The notes under the pieces: model-generated | What the model was told of the DNA's origin: nothing | The model's input: the letters and a program-made list of their open reading frames with translations, nothing else | The model's database searches: none | In this document: positions 3 to 23,976 of the stretch, one piece after another | How positions within the stretch are numbered: the stretch's first letter is position 1 | Layout: every line of letters starts with the position of its first letter | Source: an uncultured Desulfobacterales bacterium | GTDB lineage: Bacteria; Desulfobacterota; Desulfobacteria; Desulfobacterales; JAFDCJ01 | Assembly (NCBI GenBank): GCA_945787595.1 | Contig: CALZJV010000111.1 | Location: 1-37,469 of the forward strand | Length of the DNA: 37,469 nt | Reading direction: 5' to 3' | Translations under genes and position numbers: made by a program

Positions 3-653
3 CACTTATATCATGAGGATCGCCTTAATTATCCCTTGAAAAGGATCGGGGAGAGGGGTGCGGGCAAATGGCAAAGACTCTCCTGGGATGACGCCTTAAC
101 TGAGGTCGCTGAAAAACTCGACCGGATCAGGGTCCAAAGCGGTGCCGAGGCAATTGCCTCCATCGGCGGTACCGGCCGAGGCTTTTCAGAATTGTTTAAG
201 GTGCGCTTTATGAATCTTTTCGGCAGTCCCAATCATGCCAATGCAGGGCAGTGGTGTTCGGTGGTCAGCCGCCAGATTCATGCGGCCATTTATGGCGCCG
301 GGGCCAGCCGTGCCGTCAAAGAGCCCTGCAAATGCGCCGTGATCTGGGGTGGCAATCCGGCAGAATCCTTTGCCTGCATCTTCCCGCAACATATCAAAGC
401 CAAAAGACGGGGGACTCAATATATTGTCATAGATCCGAAATACTCGGAAACCGCGGGCCGGCTTGCAGACCGCTGGCTCAGGTTAAGGCCGGGCACCGAT
501 GCCGCCCTCGCTTTGGGCTGGCTGAATGTCATCATTGCCGAAAAATTATACGATAAGGATTTTGTCGAAAAATGGTGCCATGGATTCGATGCGCTCAAAA
601 AACGCGTCAAACAGTATCCACCCCGCAAGGTGGCCGAGATAACTGGGGTGTAA
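3..653 (+). pseudogene. Molybdopterin oxidoreductase, 5' part (cut by window edge, frameshifted at 3' end)
   Basis: This is the N-terminal half of a DMSO-reductase-family molybdoenzyme. The frame is open to the left edge: before the apparent TTG start at 36 it reads HLYHEDRLNYPL, which continues the usual RLxYPLKRxGERGxGKW stretch of the family, so the true start lies outside the window. Visible features are the SWDDAL segment, a conserved GQWC Cys (a candidate Mo ligand, or close to it), WGGNPAES and VIDPKYSETA (typical molybdopterin-binding blocks), and WLRLRPGTDAALALG. The frame ends at TAA 651-653 just after EITGV. Family members continue here with about 25 residues (helix then KPA-type segment) before WGV. 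That segment is missing and the rest of the protein is in another frame from 641. A true pseudogene is likely; an assembly error is possible. The substrate cannot be told. Confidence 0.8.
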
Positions 654-2020
654 AGTCAGACATGCAGGGCCCAAACGTTACCGCCATTACCCAGGCCAAG
701 TGCATCCTGCGGGCCATAACCGGCAACCTCGATGTTATCGGCGGCGATATGCTCTCCGGTCCCTGTGAAAAGGCAAACTATGGGGCCATGCTCGAGCACA
801 TGGACCTGCTGTCGGCAGAACAAAGGAAAAAGCAACTCGGTGCGGACCGGCATAAACTTTGGTGTTATCCCGGATATGAAATGGTTGCCGAATCGGCCAG
901 ACCCTATTGGTACGGCAAAGGCTTATCGGCCGGCTTTCTACCCGGCTGTCACGAGCCCGCGGTATGGGACGCCATTCTGGAGGGAAATCCGTATCAGGTC
1001 AGCGGATTGATTAGTGGCGCCTGCAATCCCCTGGTGGCCTACCCCAACACCAAAAGAATCTACCATGCACTAAAAAGCGCCAGACTTGAACTTTCGGTGG
1101 TCGCCGAGCAGTGGATGACGCCGTCGGCCATGCTGGCGGATTACGTCTTTCCGATAACCAGCTGGCTGGAGCACCCCCAGCTGTATACCCAGACGTTTCA
1201 GGGAAGCGGAAATGCCGCGGCCATCGGAGAACAGGTGGTACCTCCCCTGCATGAACGCAAAAGTGATTTTGAATTTTATCGGGGCCTGGGCTTAAATCTC
1301 GGTCAGGAGAAATACTGGCGCGACAGCTTGGACAAAGAATGGGACTGGTGTCTGCAGCCGTTGCTGCAGGAGCTGAATTTGGATTCAGCCCGGGAGTTTG
1401 CCGCAAAGCAACGCTGGTGGTCCCCCCCGCCAGTGGAAAAAAGATATGAAACCATCGATCCGAAAACGGGCAGCCCCCGGGGATTTGCGACACCAACCGG
1501 CAAGGTCGAGCTGTATTCCACCATCCTTGAAAAATTAGGTTATGATCCCCTGCCCGGCTATCAAGAACCGCCTGAAACACCGATCAGCCAACCTGAGCTG
1601 GCCAAGAAATATCCGTTCATTCTGATCACCGGTGCCAGGTTTCGCCCCATGCACCACTCCGAACACCGACAGATTCGATCTCTGCGCAAACTCTACCCCT
1701 TTCCGACTGCTGAAATAAATCCCGATACCGCCCACCAGTTGGCAATCGGCGAAGGCGACTGGATGGTCATAGAGACCCCCAGAGGAAAGATTAAGCAAAA
1801 GGCCAAATTGACTTCCCGTATTCTTCCGAGAATGGTTGAATCCCAGCATGGGTGGTGGTTTCCGGAAGAAATCGGCGAAGACCCGATACTATTCGGCGTC
1901 TTCCAGTCCAACGTCAACGTCCTCACACCGGATAGCGAAGAATTTTGCGACCCGGCCACCGGAGCCGTCACCTTTGGGCCGCTGTTGTGCAGAATTTATC
2001 CGCTGAAAAAGTATGTTTAG
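641..2020 (+). pseudogene. Molybdopterin oxidoreductase, 3' part (different frame)
   Basis: This continues the molybdoenzyme that enters from the left edge. It starts in a different frame with NWGVKSDMQGPN, then the typical ILRAITGNLDVIGGD block, a LISGACNPLVAYPNTKR nucleotide-binding block, VVAEQWMTPSAMLADYVFPI, and the C-terminal molybdopterin dinucleotide-binding beta-barrel (FILITGARFRPMHHSEHRQ to about INPDTAHQLAIGEGDWMVIETPRG). The normal stop is at 2018-2020. The barrel domain (about the last 130 residues) is complete, so only the junction at about 641-650 is abnormal. No Fe-S or membrane subunit gene follows; the next 700 bp are non-coding. An internal ATG at 662 could start a C-terminal fragment, but no useful ribosome binding site is seen. 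Closest in style to polysulfide/thiosulfate reductase or acetylene-hydratase-like catalytic subunits; the exact function is unknown. Confidence 0.8.
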
Positions 2021-2716: not shown

Positions 2717-5700
2717 ATGTCGCCGGACACAGGTTTGCATCGTTATTATGATTGCCTTGAAAGCGCCATCAGAAGAATTGCCCTTCGCCTAAAACTCCTT
2801 ATCGCCCTTGAATCCCTTCTAAGACTGGCTTCGCTTTTTCTGATCGTCCTTTTAGGAAGCCTCTTTCTTCAGGGAACCCAGGAGATATTTTCGTACCTTC
2901 CTTTCGTCTATTGCCTCCTGGCCTCGATCTCGCTGATTGTGGTCTTTTTGTTAGGGCTCTGGAAAATCGCTTCCAGGCGTTCAACGTTACGTGTCGCCAG
3001 AGGATTTGAAGAAAAGTTCCCCTGGCTGAGAGATGATTTGACCAACTCTGTTCTTCTTTACCATCAAATCAACAGTTCCTCGGCAAACGATCATATCTCA
3101 GGGGAGTTGGTTACAGCCCAACTGCGCAAGACAGCAGATATGGTTTCGAAAATTCATCCAAAACAGGTGGTAAACTTCAGAAGCGCATTGCCGCACCTAA
3201 AACTCTTGATCCCTCTTCTTTTTGCTTTCACGGTGGTCTTCGCCATGGAACCTTCGTTTCCGGGCCGCGCATTCGCTTTTCTCTTCGATCCTCTGTCTGC
3301 CCTTCCGATGCGGGAAACGGTTATATCCGTCGATCCCGCGCCTTCCATGGTGTTGCGAGGAACTCCGGTGGTGATTAAGGCCAAGGCAACCGGTTACATT
3401 CCGGATCGCGTTTCGCTGAGGTTTTGGCCCGATAATGGCGAGGTCGTTCACTTTGCTATGGATTCTGAAGGAAACGGCAGTTTCAGTCACAAGATCCATG
3501 CGGCGCAGATCTCTTTCCGATATCAGGCCTTCAGCGACCGGGCCAATTCTGCTCTTTACGAAGCGCGAGTGGTGGATGCACCTAACATAGGGAAAATGAA
3601 GCTTACCCTGATCCCTCCCGGCTACACGCGTCTCCCCGAGGAAATTAAGGAGGAGGGTCACATCGAAGCGCTAAAAGGAACGGTTGTAAATCTGGAAGCG
3701 TGGGCAACAAAAGAGGTCAGGGAAGGGAAACTGATACTGGATCATAAAAACCAGCTCCCGCTCAAGGTTGAAGGCGTCCGGCTCAACGGTAACCTTTATG
3801 TTTTTAATCCCGGCACCTATTCTCTATCCGTCAGAGATGAACTCGGGCTCGAGAATGTCAATCCCGTCCAGTACAGAATCCATCTGATTCCTGACCAATA
3901 TCCTCAGGGAGAGATTATCAGCCCCATAGAAGACCTCGAAGTCACGGGGAGTGAGATTCTCCCCCTTATTTATTCCGCAAGTGATGATTATGGCCTGACG
4001 GCGATCAGACTGATCTATCAAATGGCCGGAACGGAGCGGTCCATCACGCTAAAGGGCTTCAAGGACGATCGTTCTGCAGGACTTGAGCGTTTCAAGTGGG
4101 ATCTGGCCAGCCTGGCGTTAACCCCTGGTGATCATGTGACCTACCGCCTCGAGGTGTGGGACAACGATTCGGTCTCCGGACCCAAAGTCGGTTATTCAAG
4201 GACACTCTCCCTGCGCATGAGGAACGAGAGGGATCTGGCCGCCCGGGAGTCGGAGCGGGCTCAGGAGATCGCCGACGCCCTGTTGGATCTTTTGGCGGAT
4301 CAGTTGGAAGACATCAAAGACCGCAAGGCGCTGGCGGCTGAAACCGTTAGCATTATGGAAAAGGTCGATCAGCATCTTGAAAGTATGGGGACGGAAAAGA
4401 TGGAACGCTTTGACATGGAGTCCTTGAAGCGGAATCTATCCACACTGCATAGAAGAATCGACCGGCTATCCAAAGAGTCGACCACCCAGGAGTTGGAGCG
4501 ATTGGCGCTTCTGGCCGAAAATATAGCCAATAAAACCAGGATGCATGAAGTTGAAGCCGTGGCGCGTGAAATCAGAAATCGGCAGAGACGCCTCCTCGAG
4601 GCGCTGCGTCAACACAAGGGGCCTCTCACACCGGAGGCTCGTCAGGCCATGCTGCGAGAGCTCGAGAAGCTCAAAGACCTTGTTGCACAGGTCATGGAGG
4701 CCATGAGTAAGATGGCCGCTCAGCTTCCCGACGAGTTCATCAACAATCCTGAGCTCAGCGGGTTGGAATTCCAGGATTTTTTCAAGGACCTCGAGGAGAT
4801 CCAGAAAAAGCTGATGGCGGGAGATATGGCAGGTGCCATTGAAGCCGCCCGGAGGCTAATGCAAAACCTTTCGGAGATGATGGCAGCCATGGCCAGGGCC
4901 GGGGCTCAAGCAAACATGGGCGCTTCCGGCAGACTTCAATCGGAGATGTCCCGTCAAGCCGGCGAGCTGGAGAAAATACTTGCGGAACAAAAAGAAATTC
5001 TGGCCGGCACGGAAGCGGTCGATCGAGAATTAAAGCACGCGATCGAAGCGGAAACCGAAAAGCGCCTTGAGCACATGATGTCCCGTTTTCATGAGCTCTT
5101 TAAACAGCTGCGCGGCCTGCTTACTTCTGAGGAGCGCGATTCCATTTCGGAAATGGAAAGACTTCTTGAAGCGGGGCAGATCGAAAGGCTTTCACAGCTT
5201 GTCGAAAGCCTGGAGAAAGAGCTTGCGGGCAAGCCGGATGTTCGGATGATTTTCGACGAATTGATGCAGCAGACGAAGGCGTTGATACCCGATCAAAACG
5301 AGGTCATGACGGCAGAAAGCCAGGAAAGATTCCCCGGCCTTTCCTCCAGTCAGAAAGAGCTCCGGGAAAGGACCGCGGGTCTGGGAGAGAAACTGGAGAT
5401 GCTCTCACAGCTCTTCCCGGGCATGGACACGGAAATCATTAACGACCTCAGGCAAGGTGCGCGTTCGATGGGCACAGCGTCCGGAGAATTGGATGGCGAA
5501 GATGCCGGCGGTGCAATCCCTCCGGAACAGGAAGCCATACGAAACTTGACTCGATCACAACAGGCCATGCAGCAGATGGCGCAGCAAATGGCCCGGCAGA
5601 TGGCGATGCACATGCAGGGAAATCGATGGGCCTATCCCGGGGGGTATGATCCGAGATCCGGCTGGTATTACGGACCCCGGATCCCCATGCCCACCCTGCC

Positions 5701-17094: not shown

Positions 17095-17337
17095 GTGACC
17101 AGTGACTGGTTGACAGGCGTTCTCCACCTGAATCAAAAAATTCTTCTGATCCTCGTCGTGATTCATATCTGCGCGGTCATATTCTATCTTATCGCAAAGC
17201 GTGAAAACTTGCTGAAACCGATGATTAACGGCACCAAGCTTTGGGATCAAAACCTTGAATCTTCCTGGGAGAACACGGTATTGGCATTTTTCATACTAGC
17301 AATTATCGCTGTGGCTGTTTACCTGATTATTTATTAG
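17095..17337 (+). pseudogene. Cytochrome b561-type subunit, C-terminal remnant
   Basis: An 80-residue frame directly after an in-frame TAG (17092-17094). It encodes two membrane helices (about 15-34 and 62-79) with the pattern LVVIHICAVIFYLIAKRENL then KPMING, which is the end of di-haem b-type cytochromes of the b561/hydrogenase-cytochrome family (HxxAVxFYxxxKRENLxxPMxxG). The His in VIHIC is a likely haem ligand of the last-but-one helix. The first two helices and the other ligands are missing upstream in all frames. GTG 17095 could start translation, but the product would be a fragment. It converges with a broken cytochrome c' gene, a protein this family often accompanies. Confidence 0.65.
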
Positions 17338-17379: not shown

Positions 17380-17748
17380 TTATCCAACACGGCGATTGAA
17401 GAAAAAAGCTTCGAATGTTTTTGCTGTTTTCATAAAATTTGCCTTATCACTAAATACCGACGAACTTAAGGTTGTATCCCCTTTATCGCTGCCCGGTTCC
17501 ATAGAAGCCTCCCACGGAAGAGTCGCCAGCATCTTTACAGCATCGGCATTAACGGAAAAAGCATCTTTTTGGTAAGCTGACTTCCCCTGTACTGCGGCCC
17601 CCATTCGTTTGAAATGCTGTGCAATCAGAAACATGACTGATTTGCGGTATTTGATCGCATCTTCAGGTTTTGCAAACTGGGCATACGCTGCGCCAAACAT
17701 AAATACGGTGATGAGAGCAAAAATCATGATTTTTGTCGCTACTTTCAT
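17380..17748 (-). pseudogene. Cytochrome c' lacking the haem-attachment end
   Basis: Start ATG 17748 is preceded by AGGAGG and followed by a clean signal peptide (MKVATKIMIFALITVFMFGA, cleavage near AYAQ). The mature part follows cytochrome c': KPEDAIKYRKSVMFLIAQH with KRMGAAV, then MLATLPWEAS, PGSDKGDT, and FSDKANFMKTAKTFEA. The family then has a last helix ending in CxxCH near residue 120 of the mature chain. Here the sequence ends in FFFNRRVG and a stop, so haem cannot be attached. A 3' deletion or rearrangement next to the convergent b561 remnant explains this. The reading frame upstream is intact, so the loss may be recent. Confidence 0.75.
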
Positions 17749-17952: not shown

Positions 17953-19056
17953 CTAAAGATGACTGACCATGTATAAATGCCCGGTTTGCAAGTTGCTTCC
18001 GCCGGCAGGTTCTAAAGTGATCTCAAAGGATCGAAAATTCGAAAGCGATTCTTTGGAATGAATTTCGACTACGGCGTATCCGGTTGGTGTGACAGAGAAA
18101 ACCCCGCCACTGACTTGTTGTCCATTTTTTTTCATCCATAGCTGATATTGTTGACTTTCATCCGGAATAGGAAGATCGCTTGCTACCAGCACACCTTTTT
18201 TGCGGTCCTGACTGATGACAAACGTACCATCTCCTTTGGGAGCCCTGGACGTGCCTTTCATTTTTAAAACCAGCAGTTCTACGGCGACCTCATCCTGTAA
18301 CTCTTGTGCATTATACCATTGAATCAAATTGACGACTGAAAGGCTGATAATCATAACCAGGCCGGCAAAGGCCCATGCCGGGGATAAGCCCTGCCAAAGT
18401 GATCTCCATTTCCATCGCTTTACAATAGGCTGAACTACGGACGGCATTTTGGCAGTTGATTGAATCCTCTGCATCAATTTCTGTCTAAGCTTTTGAAGGC
18501 CAAGACGTATTCGCGTTTTTATTGTTCCCAAGGGTTCGTTCAAAGCCTCGGCAATTTGCCGGTGTGTGTAACCTTTAAAATAGGCCATTGCCAGGACATC
18601 CTGTTGATTTTTCGGCAGTCTATTGATGGCATCAGACACCTTATACCTTGTTACCGCCGATTCAAAAGCTGCGCCGGGATTATCATTTGAGGGCAGTTTC
18701 TCTAATTGGACGTCAGACCATTGGGGGCGATTAATATCTTGACGGACGTTGCGCCGGCGCAGAGTATCAATGGAGCGGTATCTTGCAATACTAGCTATCC
18801 AACCCTTAACCGACCCTTTTTCAGGGTGGTATTTGTCGGCCCTTTCCCAGATTTGCATGAAGACCTCAAGGGTAATGTCTTCAGCCGTCTCGTGGCTAAC
18901 CGCAATTTTTGTTGCAAGGCTAAAGACAAGCGTTTTATATCGATCGTAAAGAATGCCAAATGCCTTTCGATCACCAATACCTATTTGCTGAATCAGGCTG
19001 CGGTCGTCTTCTTGAGCGTTGCTTTTTGTTGATCGATATCCATTAATAGGTGGCAT
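17953..19056 (-). CDS. ECF sigma factor fused to an RskA-type periplasmic domain
   Basis: A single uninterrupted 367-residue frame. Residues about 20-100 are sigma region 2 (LIQQIGIGDRKAFGILYDRY, ETAEDITLEVFMQIW, KGSVKGWIASIARYRSID). Residues about 135-195 are sigma region 4 (INRLPKNQQDVLAMAYFKGY, HRQIAEALNEPLGTIKTRI). A membrane helix follows (about 227-247, AWAFAGLVMIISLSVVNLI), then a C-terminal domain of anti-sigma-K (RskA) type (about 260-365: QYQLWMKKNGQQVSGGVFSV, EITLEPAGGSNLQTG). The sigma-binding N-terminal domain of RskA and its zinc site are absent. Topology is cytoplasmic sigma, periplasmic sensor-like domain. The ribosome site is weak (AAGG). It lies 204 bases upstream of the cytochrome c' gene on the same strand. 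Confidence 0.88.
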   Translation of the reverse strand: MPPINGYRSTKSNAQEDDRSLIQQIGIGDRKAFGILYDRYKTLVFSLATKIAVSHETAEDITLEVFMQIWERADKYHPEKGSVKGWIASIARYRSIDTLRRRNVRQDINRPQWSDVQLEKLPSNDNPGAAFESAVTRYKVSDAINRLPKNQQDVLAMAYFKGYTHRQIAEALNEPLGTIKTRIRLGLQKLRQKLMQRIQSTAKMPSVVQPIVKRWKWRSLWQGLSPAWAFAGLVMIISLSVVNLIQWYNAQELQDEVAVELLVLKMKGTSRAPKGDGTFVISQDRKKGVLVASDLPIPDESQQYQLWMKKNGQQVSGGVFSVTPTGYAVVEIHSKESLSNFRSFEITLEPAGGSNLQTGHLYMVSHL

Positions 19057-19316
19057 AAATGGGCCTTGCGGGCTAAATCCAGCAAACTGGTTTGATTAAA
19101 CCTGGAAAATTAAATTTTATAGAAACGCTGTAAATGATAATACTGTGAAATAAGGAACAGGAACTCAAATTGCCAAAAGCACAAATGTGGGCCCAGAGAA
19201 CTAAAGCTGTAAATTATAACTCCCGCTGGCCAAATATAAATATATTCTTAGTATTTTTTTGGTGGATGTCGTGTCCTTTATCTTCATGCGCCAAGTTGTG
19301 GTTATGGTGGATTATG

Positions 19317-20363
19317 TCAAGCTTCAAACAATACGATCTCATCAACCTGTGGCCTGATGCCGATTTCTTGGCCAATTGAATGATTGTGGTGACTTGAAAC
19401 CAAAGCCAATATCTTTTCTTTGTTCTGAAGCCTTAAGGTATAGAGGATGTTTGCTCCGCGGAAATTTTTTCTCAAAATTTCAGCTTTAAATGGGCTATTA
19501 TCATCATGGATGATATCTTCCGGTCTGATCAAAACATTGGCCGGACAACCATATCGACAAGGATATGAAAAGCGTCCTTTCAAGGTGCCGAGATGAGTTT
19601 GAACTTCATCTACCGATGTCACCCGGCCAAGTACCAATACGCCTTCTCCAACAAAATCTGCCACAAATTGACTTTTAGGACGATGATACAGATTATAGGC
19701 TGTATCCCACTGCTCTAAATACCCATCTTTCATCACACCGATTGTATCAGCCATCGCAAAGGCCTCATGTTGATTATGGGTGACAAGGAGTGCACTGATT
19801 CCCAACTCCTTGAGAATTTTTCTAACATCAACACTGAGCCGTTCGCGCAGGGACACATCGAGATTGGAAAAAGGCTCATCCATCAGCAAAAGATCTGGAT
19901 TCGGTGCTAATGCTCTTGCTAAGGCTACACGTTGCTGCTGACCGCCGGATAATTCATGCGGATATTTCTCTTCATCATTTGCCAATCCGACCAAATCAAG
20001 CATTTCCATCACACGACGATTCCGTTTTGACTTGTCCAGAGTTTCAAGTCCAAAAATAATGTTTTTCCTGACTGTTAAATGAGGGAAAAGCGCATAATCC
20101 TGAAAAACCATACCCAGTCGTCTGTTTTCAGGTGGAACGCAATTGTTGGAATTGGTTACAGGTGATCCGTCGATAAAGATTGAACCTGATTCTATCCTTT
20201 CGAACCCTGCTATACATCGTAATATAGTCGTTTTTCCACAACCACTTTCCCCCAGTAGACAGCCGATGTGCCCTTTTTGTAATTCGAACGATAACGCGTT
20301 GATGACGCATTTGCCGTTATATTTTTTTGAAATGTTATTTACCTCTAAGGCGTTCGGTACCAT
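19317..20363 (-). CDS. fbpC: Iron(III) ABC transporter ATP-binding protein
   Basis: A 348-residue ABC ATPase. Walker A GESGCGKTT is at 38-46, the Q-loop Gln near 88 (MVFQDYALFPHLTV), signature LSGGQQQRVALARAL from 138, Walker B LLLMDEP at 158-164, and the switch His in VTHNQHE at 196. The C-terminal part (about 240-348) is a TOBE-like regulatory domain (VLIRPEDI) as in FbpC/PotA-type proteins. ATG 20363 has AGGTGAT just upstream and follows the permease stop by 16 bases. It is the last gene of a three-gene operon with permease and binding protein. The neighbouring DtxR-type regulator supports ferric iron as the substrate. Confidence 0.88.
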   Translation of the reverse strand: MVPNALEVNNISKKYNGKCVINALSFELQKGHIGCLLGESGCGKTTILRCIAGFERIESGSIFIDGSPVTNSNNCVPPENRRLGMVFQDYALFPHLTVRKNIIFGLETLDKSKRNRRVMEMLDLVGLANDEEKYPHELSGGQQQRVALARALAPNPDLLLMDEPFSNLDVSLRERLSVDVRKILKELGISALLVTHNQHEAFAMADTIGVMKDGYLEQWDTAYNLYHRPKSQFVADFVGEGVLVLGRVTSVDEVQTHLGTLKGRFSYPCRYGCPANVLIRPEDIIHDDNSPFKAEILRKNFRGANILYTLRLQNKEKILALVSSHHNHSIGQEIGIRPQVDEIVLFEA

Positions 20364-20379
20364 GATTTATCACCTGGAT

Positions 20380-22095
20380 TTATAAATTAGATTGTTCCGA
20401 TTTCCTATTGAGGAGAATGAGCGGAATCAGACCTGCTAATACCAAAGTTATGGATGGGAGTGCTGCCCGCTGCCATTCCCCCTCCGATGTGAGTTCAAAA
20501 ATCTTAACCGCCAGTGTGTCCCACCCAAACGGTCGAGTCATCAGCGTGATGGGCATCTCTTTCATCACATCAACAAAAACAAGCATGGCAGCCGTATAGA
20601 GTCCATTTTTCAATATTGGGATGTGGATTCTTCTAAGGAGCTTTACACCAGTTATTCCCAGCAATGTTGATGCTTCATCTAAGCTCCTTGTAATGCGATG
20701 CATGGAACTGTTGATGCTGTTGAAACCAGCTGTTAAAAAGCGAACCGTATAGGCAAATAAAACTGTAATGATGGTACCGTTTAGAATTGACTTGAGCTGG
20801 ATACCAGTTATTTCTTTAATTGCCCATATTATTTGTTTGTCTGTATAATTCACCATTATCACGATGCCGACTGCTAAAACGGTTCCAGGCAGTGCATATC
20901 CCATAGACGATAGGCGTATTGTCCACTTGGTAAAATAATCAGGATACTGACGCTGGATATAGGCCATGAGCAATCCAAGACCGGTAATAATTGCTGCTGC
21001 CATTAAAGAAAAAAATAAAGATCTGATAAGAAGACCTATGTAACGGCTGTCAAGCTCCACAGCAGCTGATTTGAGAGACCATACTGCCAATTGTAGGCAT
21101 GGAATCAAGAAGGCGATCAACACAATCGCACTCAGAGCCCCGCAAGCTATCCATTTTTTCCAACCATAAAGCCTGATTCGGCTGTTTTCGGTGCTCAACT
21201 TACCAACCTGATGAAACTGCATTTTGGTTCGCATTTGTTGTTCAACGATGACCAACAAAATTACAAAAATTAAAAGTACGGAAGATAGCTGGGCAGCGGC
21301 AGATAGAGAGAAAAAACCAAACCAGGCCTTATAGATGCCGGTTGTGAAGGTATCATAGTTAAAGATAGAAACAGCTCCGAAATCCGCTAAAGTTTCCATC
21401 AATACAAGCATTAATCCACAGGCGATCCAGGGTCTTGCCATGGGCAATGCCGCTTTAAAAAATGCGTTTTTCCGGCTTTGTCCCAGAGCTTGAGATACTT
21501 CAAGGATTCTTTTCCCCTGGGTTTGGAACGCGTTTTTTGCCAGCAGATAGACGTAAGGGTATAGTGCCAGAGACATTACGAATATTACGCCTCCAGCCGA
21601 CCGTATGTTTGGAAACCATTTTGCAGACGAAACGAGTTGCGTCCTTAACAACGTCTGAACCGGGCCAGAAAAATCCAACAGTCCGATAAACACAAACGCA
21701 AGAACATACGTTGGTATGGCAAGTGGAAGCATAAGTGCCCAGTTGAAAAACTTACGGCCTGGAAAATCAAATACCGCCGTTAGCCATGCCGTACCAACGC
21801 CAAGAATAAATGTACCTGTCAGTACCCCGATGCAAAGGATAAAAGTATTTTTCAGCAACTCGATTAAAAGGGTGTCAACGATATGCTGCCAGATTTCCGA
21901 TACGGGTTGCAGAAGAGATGAAAAAATAACCAGGATTGGTATGATTACAAATAGTGCAGAGATTATCGCGATGAATCTTATACTTATGATTGAATGTGCC
22001 TTTTTCAGCAAAGCACTACCAAATGGGCGTTGATACCTTTCATTTGGCACGCAGGCAGATATATTCATATTATCAATTATAGAAATCGCCATCAT
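20380..22095 (-). CDS. fbpB: Iron(III) ABC transporter permease, two fused halves
   Basis: About 571 residues with some 12 membrane helices in two homologous halves. Each half carries an EAA loop that contacts the ATPase: EVSQALGQSRKNAFFKAALP in the first and EASTLLGITGVKLLRRIHIP in the second. This is the FbpB/SfuB layout. The start is uncertain: ATG 22095, ATG 22092 or TTG 22107, none with a good ribosome site. I chose ATG 22095. It lies 73 bases after the binding-protein gene in the same operon. The inner-membrane channel delivers ferric iron released by the periplasmic protein. Confidence 0.85.
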   Translation of the reverse strand: MMAISIIDNMNISACVPNERYQRPFGSALLKKAHSIISIRFIAIISALFVIIPILVIFSSLLQPVSEIWQHIVDTLLIELLKNTFILCIGVLTGTFILGVGTAWLTAVFDFPGRKFFNWALMLPLAIPTYVLAFVFIGLLDFSGPVQTLLRTQLVSSAKWFPNIRSAGGVIFVMSLALYPYVYLLAKNAFQTQGKRILEVSQALGQSRKNAFFKAALPMARPWIACGLMLVLMETLADFGAVSIFNYDTFTTGIYKAWFGFFSLSAAAQLSSVLLIFVILLVIVEQQMRTKMQFHQVGKLSTENSRIRLYGWKKWIACGALSAIVLIAFLIPCLQLAVWSLKSAAVELDSRYIGLLIRSLFFSLMAAAIITGLGLLMAYIQRQYPDYFTKWTIRLSSMGYALPGTVLAVGIVIMVNYTDKQIIWAIKEITGIQLKSILNGTIITVLFAYTVRFLTAGFNSINSSMHRITRSLDEASTLLGITGVKLLRRIHIPILKNGLYTAAMLVFVDVMKEMPITLMTRPFGWDTLAVKIFELTSEGEWQRAALPSITLVLAGLIPLILLNRKSEQSNL

Positions 22096-22168
22096 TTGTA
22101 GAATCAACTTTGAACAAATGATGGATTGTGGTTATGGTTTATTTACGATAAATCTTAATTCAATCGAG

Positions 22169-23179
22169 TTATTTATATCCAACTCGATCCATCAGCTTTA
22201 TCGCTGCCGCTTGGTTCTCACCAGCATTCTTAAGATTGATTTTATTTTGCTTGAATGATCCCCAATAAGCAACGATTGGGTTGACAGGAACATTAGGATT
22301 GACCGGATATTCCAGGTTGGCATCGGCAAATATCTGCTGGGCATTTTTAGCCGATAACCATTCGAGAAAAGCAACAGCCGCGGCCTTGTTTTTAGAAGCA
22401 GCAACTACACCAGCCCCTGATACATTGACATGTACACCACCCGAGGATTGGTTCGGCCAAAAAAGTGCAATCGGAATGGTAGGGTCTTTTTTAGCAAGAC
22501 GACCAAAATAGTAGGTATTAACAATTCCAACATCCCCCTGACCGGCAATGATAGCCTCCATTACCTTTGTGTCATTGGAAAATGGAGGGGCAGCAAGATT
22601 GCCCACCCAGCCTTTCACAATCTTGGCTGTCTCCTCTTCACCGTGCTCCTTGATCAACATTGCAACCAATGATTGGTTGTACACTTTTTTCGAGGTTCTA
22701 AGAACAAGCCTCTCTTTCCAATCAGCCTTAGATAGGTCCTCGTAGGTGGTCAGTTCGTCAGGTTGAACCCTTTTAGTACTGTAAACAATTGTTCTTGCCC
22801 TTAATGACAGGCCAAACCATTTGTTCTCCGGGTCACGTAGGTGGCTTGGAATATTGGATGTTAAGATGTTCGATGGAACTGATTGCAATACTCCCTGCTT
22901 GGCAGCATGCCACAAATTGCCTGCATCCACGGTAATTAAAAGATCGGCTGGCGTATTTTCGCCTTCTGCTTTTATGCGCTGAAGCAAAACGGGGGCTTTA
23001 TCGGTAATGTATTTGACCTGGACACCTGTCTCTTTGGTGTAAAGTTCAAATACCGGCTTGATCAGATGCTCTTTGCGGGCCGAATAAACGACAATTTCCT
23101 GGCTAAATGCCGTCCCTGAATAGGAAACCAAGAGAAAAAGTGAAATCGAAAAAAATAAGGTTCGGATTTGTTTGTTCAT
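22169..23179 (-). CDS. fbpA: Iron(III)-binding periplasmic protein
   Basis: A 336-residue binding protein with a signal peptide (about 1-26, cleavage near AFSQ), then EIVVYSARKEHLIKPVFELY, the usual start of FbpA-type ferric-binding proteins. The paired tyrosines in NTYYFGR match the family's iron-coordinating YY pair. Other family blocks are ADLLITVDAGNLW, WFGLSLRARTIVYS and GVHVNVSGAGVV. ATG 23179 has AAAGGAG upstream with slightly long spacing. It is the first gene of the importer operon, with a promoter/operator candidate about 150 bases upstream and a divergent DtxR-type regulator. Confidence 0.9.
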   Translation of the reverse strand: MNKQIRTLFFSISLFLLVSYSGTAFSQEIVVYSARKEHLIKPVFELYTKETGVQVKYITDKAPVLLQRIKAEGENTPADLLITVDAGNLWHAAKQGVLQSVPSNILTSNIPSHLRDPENKWFGLSLRARTIVYSTKRVQPDELTTYEDLSKADWKERLVLRTSKKVYNQSLVAMLIKEHGEEETAKIVKGWVGNLAAPPFSNDTKVMEAIIAGQGDVGIVNTYYFGRLAKKDPTIPIALFWPNQSSGGVHVNVSGAGVVAASKNKAAAVAFLEWLSAKNAQQIFADANLEYPVNPNVPVNPIVAYWGSFKQNKINLKNAGENQAAAIKLMDRVGYK

Positions 23180-23331
23180 TTATTTTATCGCTCCTTTAAT
23201 ATTAGTAGACAAACTTTCTTAAACCACGGATTAATCTGCATGAACGCAAAGTACGGTGTGGATTTAGAATAGCTATTAATGTCAGTTGAATTCATGAATT
23301 CTTGAGACATCCATCCTTCGAAGGAGAATGT

Positions 23332-23360
23332 TTGATACACCAAACATATTATGGTGTCAA
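23332..23360 (-). promoter_or_regulatory. fbpA-operon promoter overlapped by an imperfect palindrome
   Basis: Read on the minus strand: TTGACA (23360-23355), a 17-base spacer, then TATCAA (23337-23332). The same bases form a near-palindrome, TTGACACCA and TGGTGTATCAA around a 9-base centre, so a dimeric repressor could cover both promoter boxes. The divergent DtxR-type protein is the obvious candidate. A short perfect palindrome, TCCTTCGAAGGA, lies at 23315-23326 in the leader. Confidence 0.5.
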
Positions 23361-23463
23361 CAACAATTCTTAATTTTTCAAAAAAATTTTGACATATGAT
23401 GAAATGTATGAGATTTTGTGCTAATACGTTGTCGAACAACATAAATTAAAAGAGGGCGTTAAA

Positions 23464-23976
23464 ATGAAAGGGCTTTCTGAGAACTTAGAGAATTATTTAG
23501 AAACCATTTTAGTTCTACAAAATGAAAATACCGTAGCAAGGGTAAAGGATATCGCCGAAAAGCTTGGTGTTCTCAGCGGGACCGTTACCTCAGCTTTAAG
23601 AACGCTTTCTGAAAAAAAAATGATCAATTATAAACCATATAGCTTTATTACCTTAACGAAAGAAGGGAAAAAAATAGCGGATGAAATATTACGGCGACAC
23701 AATGTAATAAAAGATTTTTTACAATGCGTGCTACTGATAGACGAGAAAAAAGCTGAAGAGAATGCTTGCAGAATGGAACACTCAATGGATAAAATCGCCG
23801 TTAACAGACTCGTTCAATTTATCGATTATATCTATCAATGCCCTCGCACCGGAGAAGATTGGATCGGTAATTTCAACACTTTTTTTACGCAGAATAAAAT
23901 TGCTGAGGCTAATTGCCCAGAATGTCTTGATGATTGTCTAAAACGGTATCGGGAAAGCCCCAAAAAGTCAGTTTAG
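23464..23976 (+). CDS. DtxR-family iron-dependent repressor
   Basis: A 170-residue regulator divergent from the iron importer. Residues 8-65 form the winged helix (SENLENYLETILVLQNENTV, VKDIAEKLGVLSGTVTSALR). The dimer/metal domain follows with RRHN (His79) and ACRMEH, placing Cys102, Glu105 and His106 at the positions used by Corynebacterium DtxR. The DtxR metal ligand Met10 is Asn here, and His98 is Glu. The C-terminal CPECLDDC stretch holds three Cys and could add a metal or redox site. There is no SH3-like third domain, so it is of the short class. ATG 23464 has AGAGGGCG upstream. It likely represses the importer when iron is plentiful. Confidence 0.87.
   Translation: MKGLSENLENYLETILVLQNENTVARVKDIAEKLGVLSGTVTSALRTLSEKKMINYKPYSFITLTKEGKKIADEILRRHNVIKDFLQCVLLIDEKKAEENACRMEHSMDKIAVNRLVQFIDYIYQCPRTGEDWIGNFNTFFTQNKIAEANCPECLDDCLKRYRESPKKSV

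Follow-up and report, generated by a model that had tools for sequence, protein, structure and literature searches.

A single-chain ECF sigma factor with a membrane helix and an RskA-type outer domain, probably formed by a small deletion in a two-gene sigma/anti-sigma pair

How an extracytoplasmic function (ECF) sigma factor came to share one polypeptide with the membrane helix and outer domain of an anti-sigma protein, and whether such a chain could act as a regulator, are the questions raised by one gene in the window, the whole 37,469-nucleotide stretch of DNA analysed here. The original prediction, which gave no strand, described a chain in which sigma regions 2 and 4 run on without a break into one transmembrane helix and an RskA-like outer domain. 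The gene is on the minus strand, with its ATG at the high end of 17953–19056 and a TAG at 17955–17953; all 367 codons are open, there are no internal stops, and neither a stop nor a frameshift that would part the chain lies near residue 200. Its parts are as follows.

17953–19056, minus strand: fused open reading frame of 367 aa, ECF sigma factor, transmembrane helix and RskA_C domain (reading frame, Pfam)
18748–18951, minus strand: sigma region 2, residues 36–103 (Pfam PF04542)
18487–18639, minus strand: sigma region 4, residues 140–190 (Pfam PF08281)
18451–18480, minus strand: retained part of anti-sigma helix 4, residues 193–202 (AlphaFold2; helix 176–202 in the fusion, helix 61–75 in a stand-alone anti-sigma)
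18322–18378, minus strand: transmembrane segment, residues 227–245 (hydropathy; model helix 227–257)
17959–18273, minus strand: outer beta domain of RskA_C type, residues 262–366 (Pfam PF10099 at residues 241–355; eight model strands)

Pfam and hydropathy place the domains in the order described, and the Pfam matches exceed their curated cut-offs: Sigma70_r2 (residues 36–103) scores 56 bits against 24, Sigma70_r4_2 (residues 140–190) 50.7 against 25.7, and RskA_C (PF10099, residues 241–355) 61.8 against 29.4. Membership of the ECF group is seen in the presence of regions 2 and 4 together with the absence of Pfam matches to the region 1 or region 3 families, and the sigma70-ECF model TIGR02937 scores 96.8 bits (cut-off 42.9). 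The SigK subfamily model NF007228 (PRK09646) reaches 137.5 bits, below its cut-off of 226, the top model, PRK12519, is below its own as well (149.9, cut-off 222), and a PDB sequence search put R. sphaeroides SigE (2q1z_A, E 1.9e-19) ahead of SigK (4nqw_A, E 2.8e-17); we therefore call the sigma half SigK-like and do not class it as SigK. The second half is of RskA type, a single transmembrane helix being followed by RskA_C; NF052375, an NCBIfam model for anti-sigmas, scores 74.7, below its cut-off of 100. Membrane anchoring, also foreseen by the original prediction, is supported by a single hydrophobic stretch, whose top 19-residue window (residues 227–245) has a mean hydropathy of 2.17, and by basic residues before it (K/R at 213, 214, 216, and 218) and acidic residues after it, which fits an N-in topology. 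The fused protein would sit in the membrane with its sigma part inside and RskA_C outside.

The one-chain form had been called unusual, and the searches agree: relatives are nearly all encoded as separate genes, with a single further fused copy. Among the best 120 of 1108 protein matches, free sigma relatives (mostly 201 aa) reach at most 91% identity to the sigma half, free RskA_C anti-sigma relatives reach at most 86% identity to the second half, and only one protein, P0002, is fused; more distant fusions may be present among the remaining 988. A query with the RskA half returned 71 proteins, 70 of them stand-alone (232–257 aa) and one, again P0002, fused. Across the 144 proteins compared, 70 carry the sigma half only, 72 the anti-sigma half only, and both halves occur together in P0002 and the window's own fusion (P0001). 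P0002, encoded on a 2,642-bp contig, departs from the window's fusion at a single residue (I25V) and agrees with it letter for letter at the junction. The close free relatives and the second fused contig together argue that the fusion is not a chance arrangement; because those close relatives are separate genes, it does not look like an established one-chain system either.

Genome searches gave the same picture. Of 116 relatives screened, 93 had a match, and among the matches listed four had open frames of at least 367 aa. The 460-aa frame of G006 is divided by a TAA that parts sigma from anti-sigma, and in G116, G022, and G087 (394, 494, and 441 aa, sigma match only) a stop in each leaves the sigma alone. 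In two of these genomes the sigma gene is in frame with its neighbour and split from it just by a stop and a short spacer or none: in G006 the neighbour is the next gene (L036, 3024–3605 and 2253–2981), and in G022 (L055) it is an anti-sigma-like frame. Among 389 genomes of the class, seven had a match at E 1e-20 and, judged mainly by frame length, no listed open frame reaches the length of the fusion. No fusion was found in 395 genomes of the phylum, in which nine RskA_C matches occur in seven genomes (three loci were read, two are known as separate genes, and the other four frames have at most 291 aa). Plasmid records with a match numbered 517, with none of the 25 matches listed covering 80% of the query; viral contigs gave no match; and a genome-contig search returned two loci, L001 and an unrelated sigma match of 26%. 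As far as searched, the fusion appears private to its lineage.

The L001 locus, from a Desulfosarcina MAG, points to the origin of the gene. It is syntenic with the window, sharing the upstream ABC-transporter permease and ATPase genes (BPD_transp_1, and ABC_tran with TOBE_2, by Pfam; we take these genes to be fbp-type) and the downstream cytochrome c', and its sigma and anti-sigma are two separate genes. The fusion halves are 78% and 74% identical in amino acids to their L001 counterparts, and in the alignment the window gene is without one 289-bp block, with no other gaps. Taking L001 as a stand-in for the fusion's true parent, the missing block covers the final 9 residues of the sigma, the spacer between the genes and the first 65 residues of the anti-sigma. 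This comparison makes it very likely, in our view, that the fusion arose when an ordinary sigma/anti-sigma pair of separate genes recently lost 289 bp by deletion. The parents would have been a SigK-like ECF sigma gene and a downstream RskA-type zinc anti-sigma gene, and the deletion would have put the anti-sigma, from its residue 66 onwards, in frame behind sigma residues 1–191. The breakpoint is marked by the following feature.

18476–18489, minus strand: deletion junction CTTAGACAGAAATT, from codon 190, a hybrid of two imperfect 14-bp repeats (alignment to L001)

The repeats lie apart in L001, CTTAGACAGATATT near the end of the sigma gene (position 3126) and CTTAAGCAGAAATT at anti-sigma codon 64 (position 3415), both in codon frame. 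When 14-mers from the two gene parts were compared (22,800 pairs), this pair, with 11 of 14 positions matching, was one of the two best, at a repeat length picked after the junction had been seen. Exact runs longer than the junction's 4 bases (up to 8) are shared at 30 other possible junctions in the span, and one third of all breakpoint pairs would give an in-frame join. The deletion probably occurred by slippage or recombination between short imperfect direct repeats. That the parents share just 4 exact bases at the junction, as in chimeric joins, would also fit an artefact of assembly or amplification in which two separate genes became linked, a reading we find very hard to credit. Four bases in common are not enough for an assembly graph to collapse, and the join is in frame and coincides with an imperfect repeat pair that is among the two best. 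The second, non-identical contig carries the same junction protein and, though it may stem from the same sample, its identical junction letters make an assembly error unlikely.

What the deletion removed and what it spared can be read from the stand-alone relatives. According to the available text of PMC7406223, sigma-4 is bound in class I anti-sigmas by the bundle of helices 1–3; helix 4 comes after a flexible linker and binds regions 2.1 and 2.2 of sigma-2, the core-polymerase-binding site. In the AlphaFold2 model of P0030, a stand-alone anti-sigma, helices at residues 3–14, 20–32, 34–53, and 61–75 come before the membrane-spanning helix and an outer domain of beta strands. The fusion picks up at P0030 residue 66, so that it has lost helices 1–3, the linker, and one turn at the start of helix 4. 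The zinc motif HX3CX2C, present in 71 of 72 stand-alone anti-sigmas, is absent from the fusion; its H29, C33, and C36 are invariant in the 58 of the 72 that were aligned, an alignment from which P0144, with no zinc motif at its listed start, was left out. Pfam likewise finds zf-HC2 in P0030 and not in the fusion. The N-terminal four-helix domain by which class I (zinc) anti-sigmas are recognised is therefore absent from the fusion except for most of helix 4. The earlier claim that the sigma-binding part of RskA is missing stands for helices 1–3 and the zinc site, which are deleted, and fails for helix 4, most of which is kept according to the alignment and the models.

Structure prediction, which had been proposed as a check, modelled sigma-2, sigma-4, a membrane-spanning helix, and an outer domain of beta strands (input alignment of 14 sigma rows, 30 anti-sigma rows, and both fusions; mean pLDDT 78), with a pTM of 0.39 that makes the relative positions of the domains unreliable. 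A helix at residues 176–202 runs from sigma-4 across the junction into the retained helix 4 and is followed by a low-confidence stretch (203–225), a helix at 227–257, and the outer beta domain. The first Foldseek match in the PDB was M. tuberculosis SigK in complex with RskA (4nqw_A, E 8.4e-10), and the superposition is poor (TM 0.22 by query length, rmsd 11.9). A PDB sequence search with P0030 gave weak matches only, the best being RsiW (E 0.061).

The state of the gene and of its neighbours bears on whether the product is a working protein or debris. With the halves divided at residue 194, two residues beyond the join, the sigma half keeps 77 of 79 conserved columns (the exceptions are D64E and T67M) and the anti-sigma half all 51 of 51. 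The stem branch of the fusion is not extreme: branches longer than it lead to 10 of the 55 and 5 of the 51 other tips. By relative-rate counts the sigma half is no faster than P0003 or P0004. For the anti-sigma half, unique changes outnumber those of P0030 or P0032 every time (10 of 10 comparisons; at most 13 versus 4; chi-square 0.07–4.76). The dN/dS values of the fusion are 0.26 and 0.19 against L001 and 0.19 and 0.33 against G006; for comparison, fbpC (0.06) and fbpB (0.04) are both lower against L001. Judged from its letters, the fused protein is not visibly decayed; as its conservation mostly predates the fusion, present selection is not proven by it. The two adjacent genes are truncated.

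17407–17748, minus strand: cytochrome c' remnant, residues 1–114 of the 153-aa G006 relative (comparison with G006)
17098–17334, plus strand: cytochrome b561 remnant, residues 180–258 of the 262-aa G006 relative (tblastn, E 9e-31, 63% identity)

Beside the fusion, then, cytochrome c' is reduced to 114 of 153 residues, with its haem-binding end not found within the window, and b561 to 79 of 262, with a Pfam score of 19.5 bits (below the cut-off of 30.1) versus 93.3 for the G006 relative. In G006, the genes for b561 and c' are convergent and apparently complete (L036, 806–1594 and 1697–2158, respectively). The damage to this pair of genes takes another form in L001, with an in-frame TAA in c' (4196–4651) and b561 in fragments only (4985–5145). 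Elsewhere in the window, a molybdopterin oxidoreductase gene (36–2020, plus strand) is split over two overlapping frames, 36–653 and 572–2020, by a frameshift or a sequence error. Against G006 the truncated cytochrome genes have dN/dS values of 0.21 and 0.22 (for c' against L001, silent sites are saturated and give no ratio); recently broken genes at this locus thus look conserved too, and low ratios are no proof of present function.

These truncated neighbours make locus decay a serious rival to a working switch, and the differing damage in L001 and the split molybdopterin oxidoreductase gene speak for it as well. The 289-bp deletion would then be one of several small ones in a decaying locus, too young for stops to have entered the frame, and the protein would be unstable or useless. 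We regard such a dead end as a real possibility, if less likely than not; it must accommodate 367 codons without a stop, the full or nearly full retention of conserved columns (mostly older than the fusion), a second allele with one residue changed, and the L001 sigma and anti-sigma frames, which are open although the cytochromes beside them are broken. That the fusion is a newborn one-component membrane sigma switch, working and kept by selection, strikes us as rather unlikely.

The upstream region offers one candidate regulatory element.

19083–19094, minus strand: palindrome CAAACCAGTTTG, 27–38 bp before the start codon (comparison with L001)

Its counterpart before the L001 sigma gene is CAAACCGGTTTG. 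At one mismatch or fewer the palindrome has three matches in the window, two of which are the same site on both strands, and 9 of 100 shuffles did equally well; it is a possible operator and may be due to chance. When four upstream regions were aligned, clear similarity was confined to the window and L001, which is insufficient to name a promoter, and nothing in the window reaches an Rfam gathering score. Further upstream, at 19317–23976, an ABC transporter (ATPase, permease, and binding protein) adjoins an iron-dependent repressor gene (23464–23976), which suggests a metal-uptake neighbourhood.

If the fused protein is active, how would it be controlled? With the bundle gone, classic inhibition cannot work in full. 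The membrane anchor, perhaps together with helix 4, might hold the sigma part off in place of the lost bundle, and a cut in the outer domain, followed by one from a site-2 (M50) protease, would free a sigma fragment of about 24–27 kDa (computed masses are 23.6 kDa for residues 1–205 and 27.1 kDa for residues 1–235). The analogy is with IutY of Pseudomonas putida, which in its full-length form is described, in the available text of PMC5411451, as signal-dependent and as freed by Prc and RseP. For M. tuberculosis, the available text of PMC7509140 names RskA among the substrates of Rip1, a site-2 protease, and states that an altered outer part of RskA can raise SigK activity. Genes for M50 proteases are present in the genomes of all three relatives and also in 14 of 14 control genomes, so their presence says little. 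By analogy, release of the sigma by proteolysis is plausible, and if the fusion is active, it most likely works in the manner of IutY, by membrane tethering and proteolytic release. Taken jointly, the deletion origin and this tether-and-release mechanism are a tentative account, one we are slightly more inclined to doubt than to accept.

Tethering without effective inhibition would have the opposite outcome: the anchored protein would be active from the membrane, or trimmed at once by housekeeping proteases, and its regulon would always be on. The sigma-4-binding helices 1–3 (as described in the available text of PMC7406223) are lost in the fusion, and the IutY variants truncated in the outer domain that figure in the available text of PMC5411451 show high activity without a signal. 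Unlike those truncated forms, however, the fusion has an outer domain that looks complete (51 of 51 columns), and its retained helix 4 could still touch sigma-2; we hold a constitutive sigma to be improbable.

For the tether-and-release mechanism, IutY is the closest working example that we found. It belongs to ECF243 and, according to the available text of PMC5411451, is a single chain of 374 aa, close in length and plan to the 367-aa fusion, in which an ECF sigma in the cytosol is linked by one transmembrane segment to an outer domain. It differs in that its outer domain is a cell-surface-signalling anti-sigma, with the receptor IutA in the system, whereas the outer half of the fusion is RskA_C, the flanks are an ABC transporter and cytochrome remnants, and the origin would be a class I zinc anti-sigma. 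The contrast in outer domains is drawn from Pfam, which found no outer-domain family besides RskA_C in that half at E up to 1.

One-chain sigma/anti-sigma proteins have been described before: PMC8999054, in its available text, covers IutY, ECF48, ECF52, and ECF53. The last three, from Actinobacteria (ECF52 being represented by SCO4117), resemble the fusion in joining an ECF sigma to a C-terminal membrane part; as far as the available texts of PMC8999054 and PMC5826349 go, their extension is described with a zinc-finger anti-sigma domain, which is deleted in the fusion, and ECF52 further has a stretch rich in proline and a carbohydrate-binding domain. No RskA-type fusion that lacks the bundle turned up in the open-licence full texts searched. 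The SigK/RskA-like pair in L001 is the nearest two-gene system, alike in both halves, which are direct relatives, in gene order, and in the upstream ABC-transporter genes; it differs in being two genes with a full anti-sigma domain, where the fusion is one chain without helices 1–3 and the zinc motif.

The main value of the fusion lies in its being a natural experiment. To our knowledge, the origin of one-chain sigma/anti-sigma proteins is rarely visible; here, with the separate-gene form at hand in the syntenic L001 and the break placed within 4 bases, the states before and after can be compared. Because the sigma-4-binding bundle was removed and most of the sigma-2-binding helix kept, the fusion also amounts to a natural dissection of class I anti-sigma function. 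If it is a working newborn switch, proteins like IutY or ECF52 can arise in a single step, and one small deletion would convert an inhibitor-based two-protein switch into a tether-and-release switch. It would then test whether anchoring alone, or anchoring plus helix 4, suffices to hold a sigma factor off.
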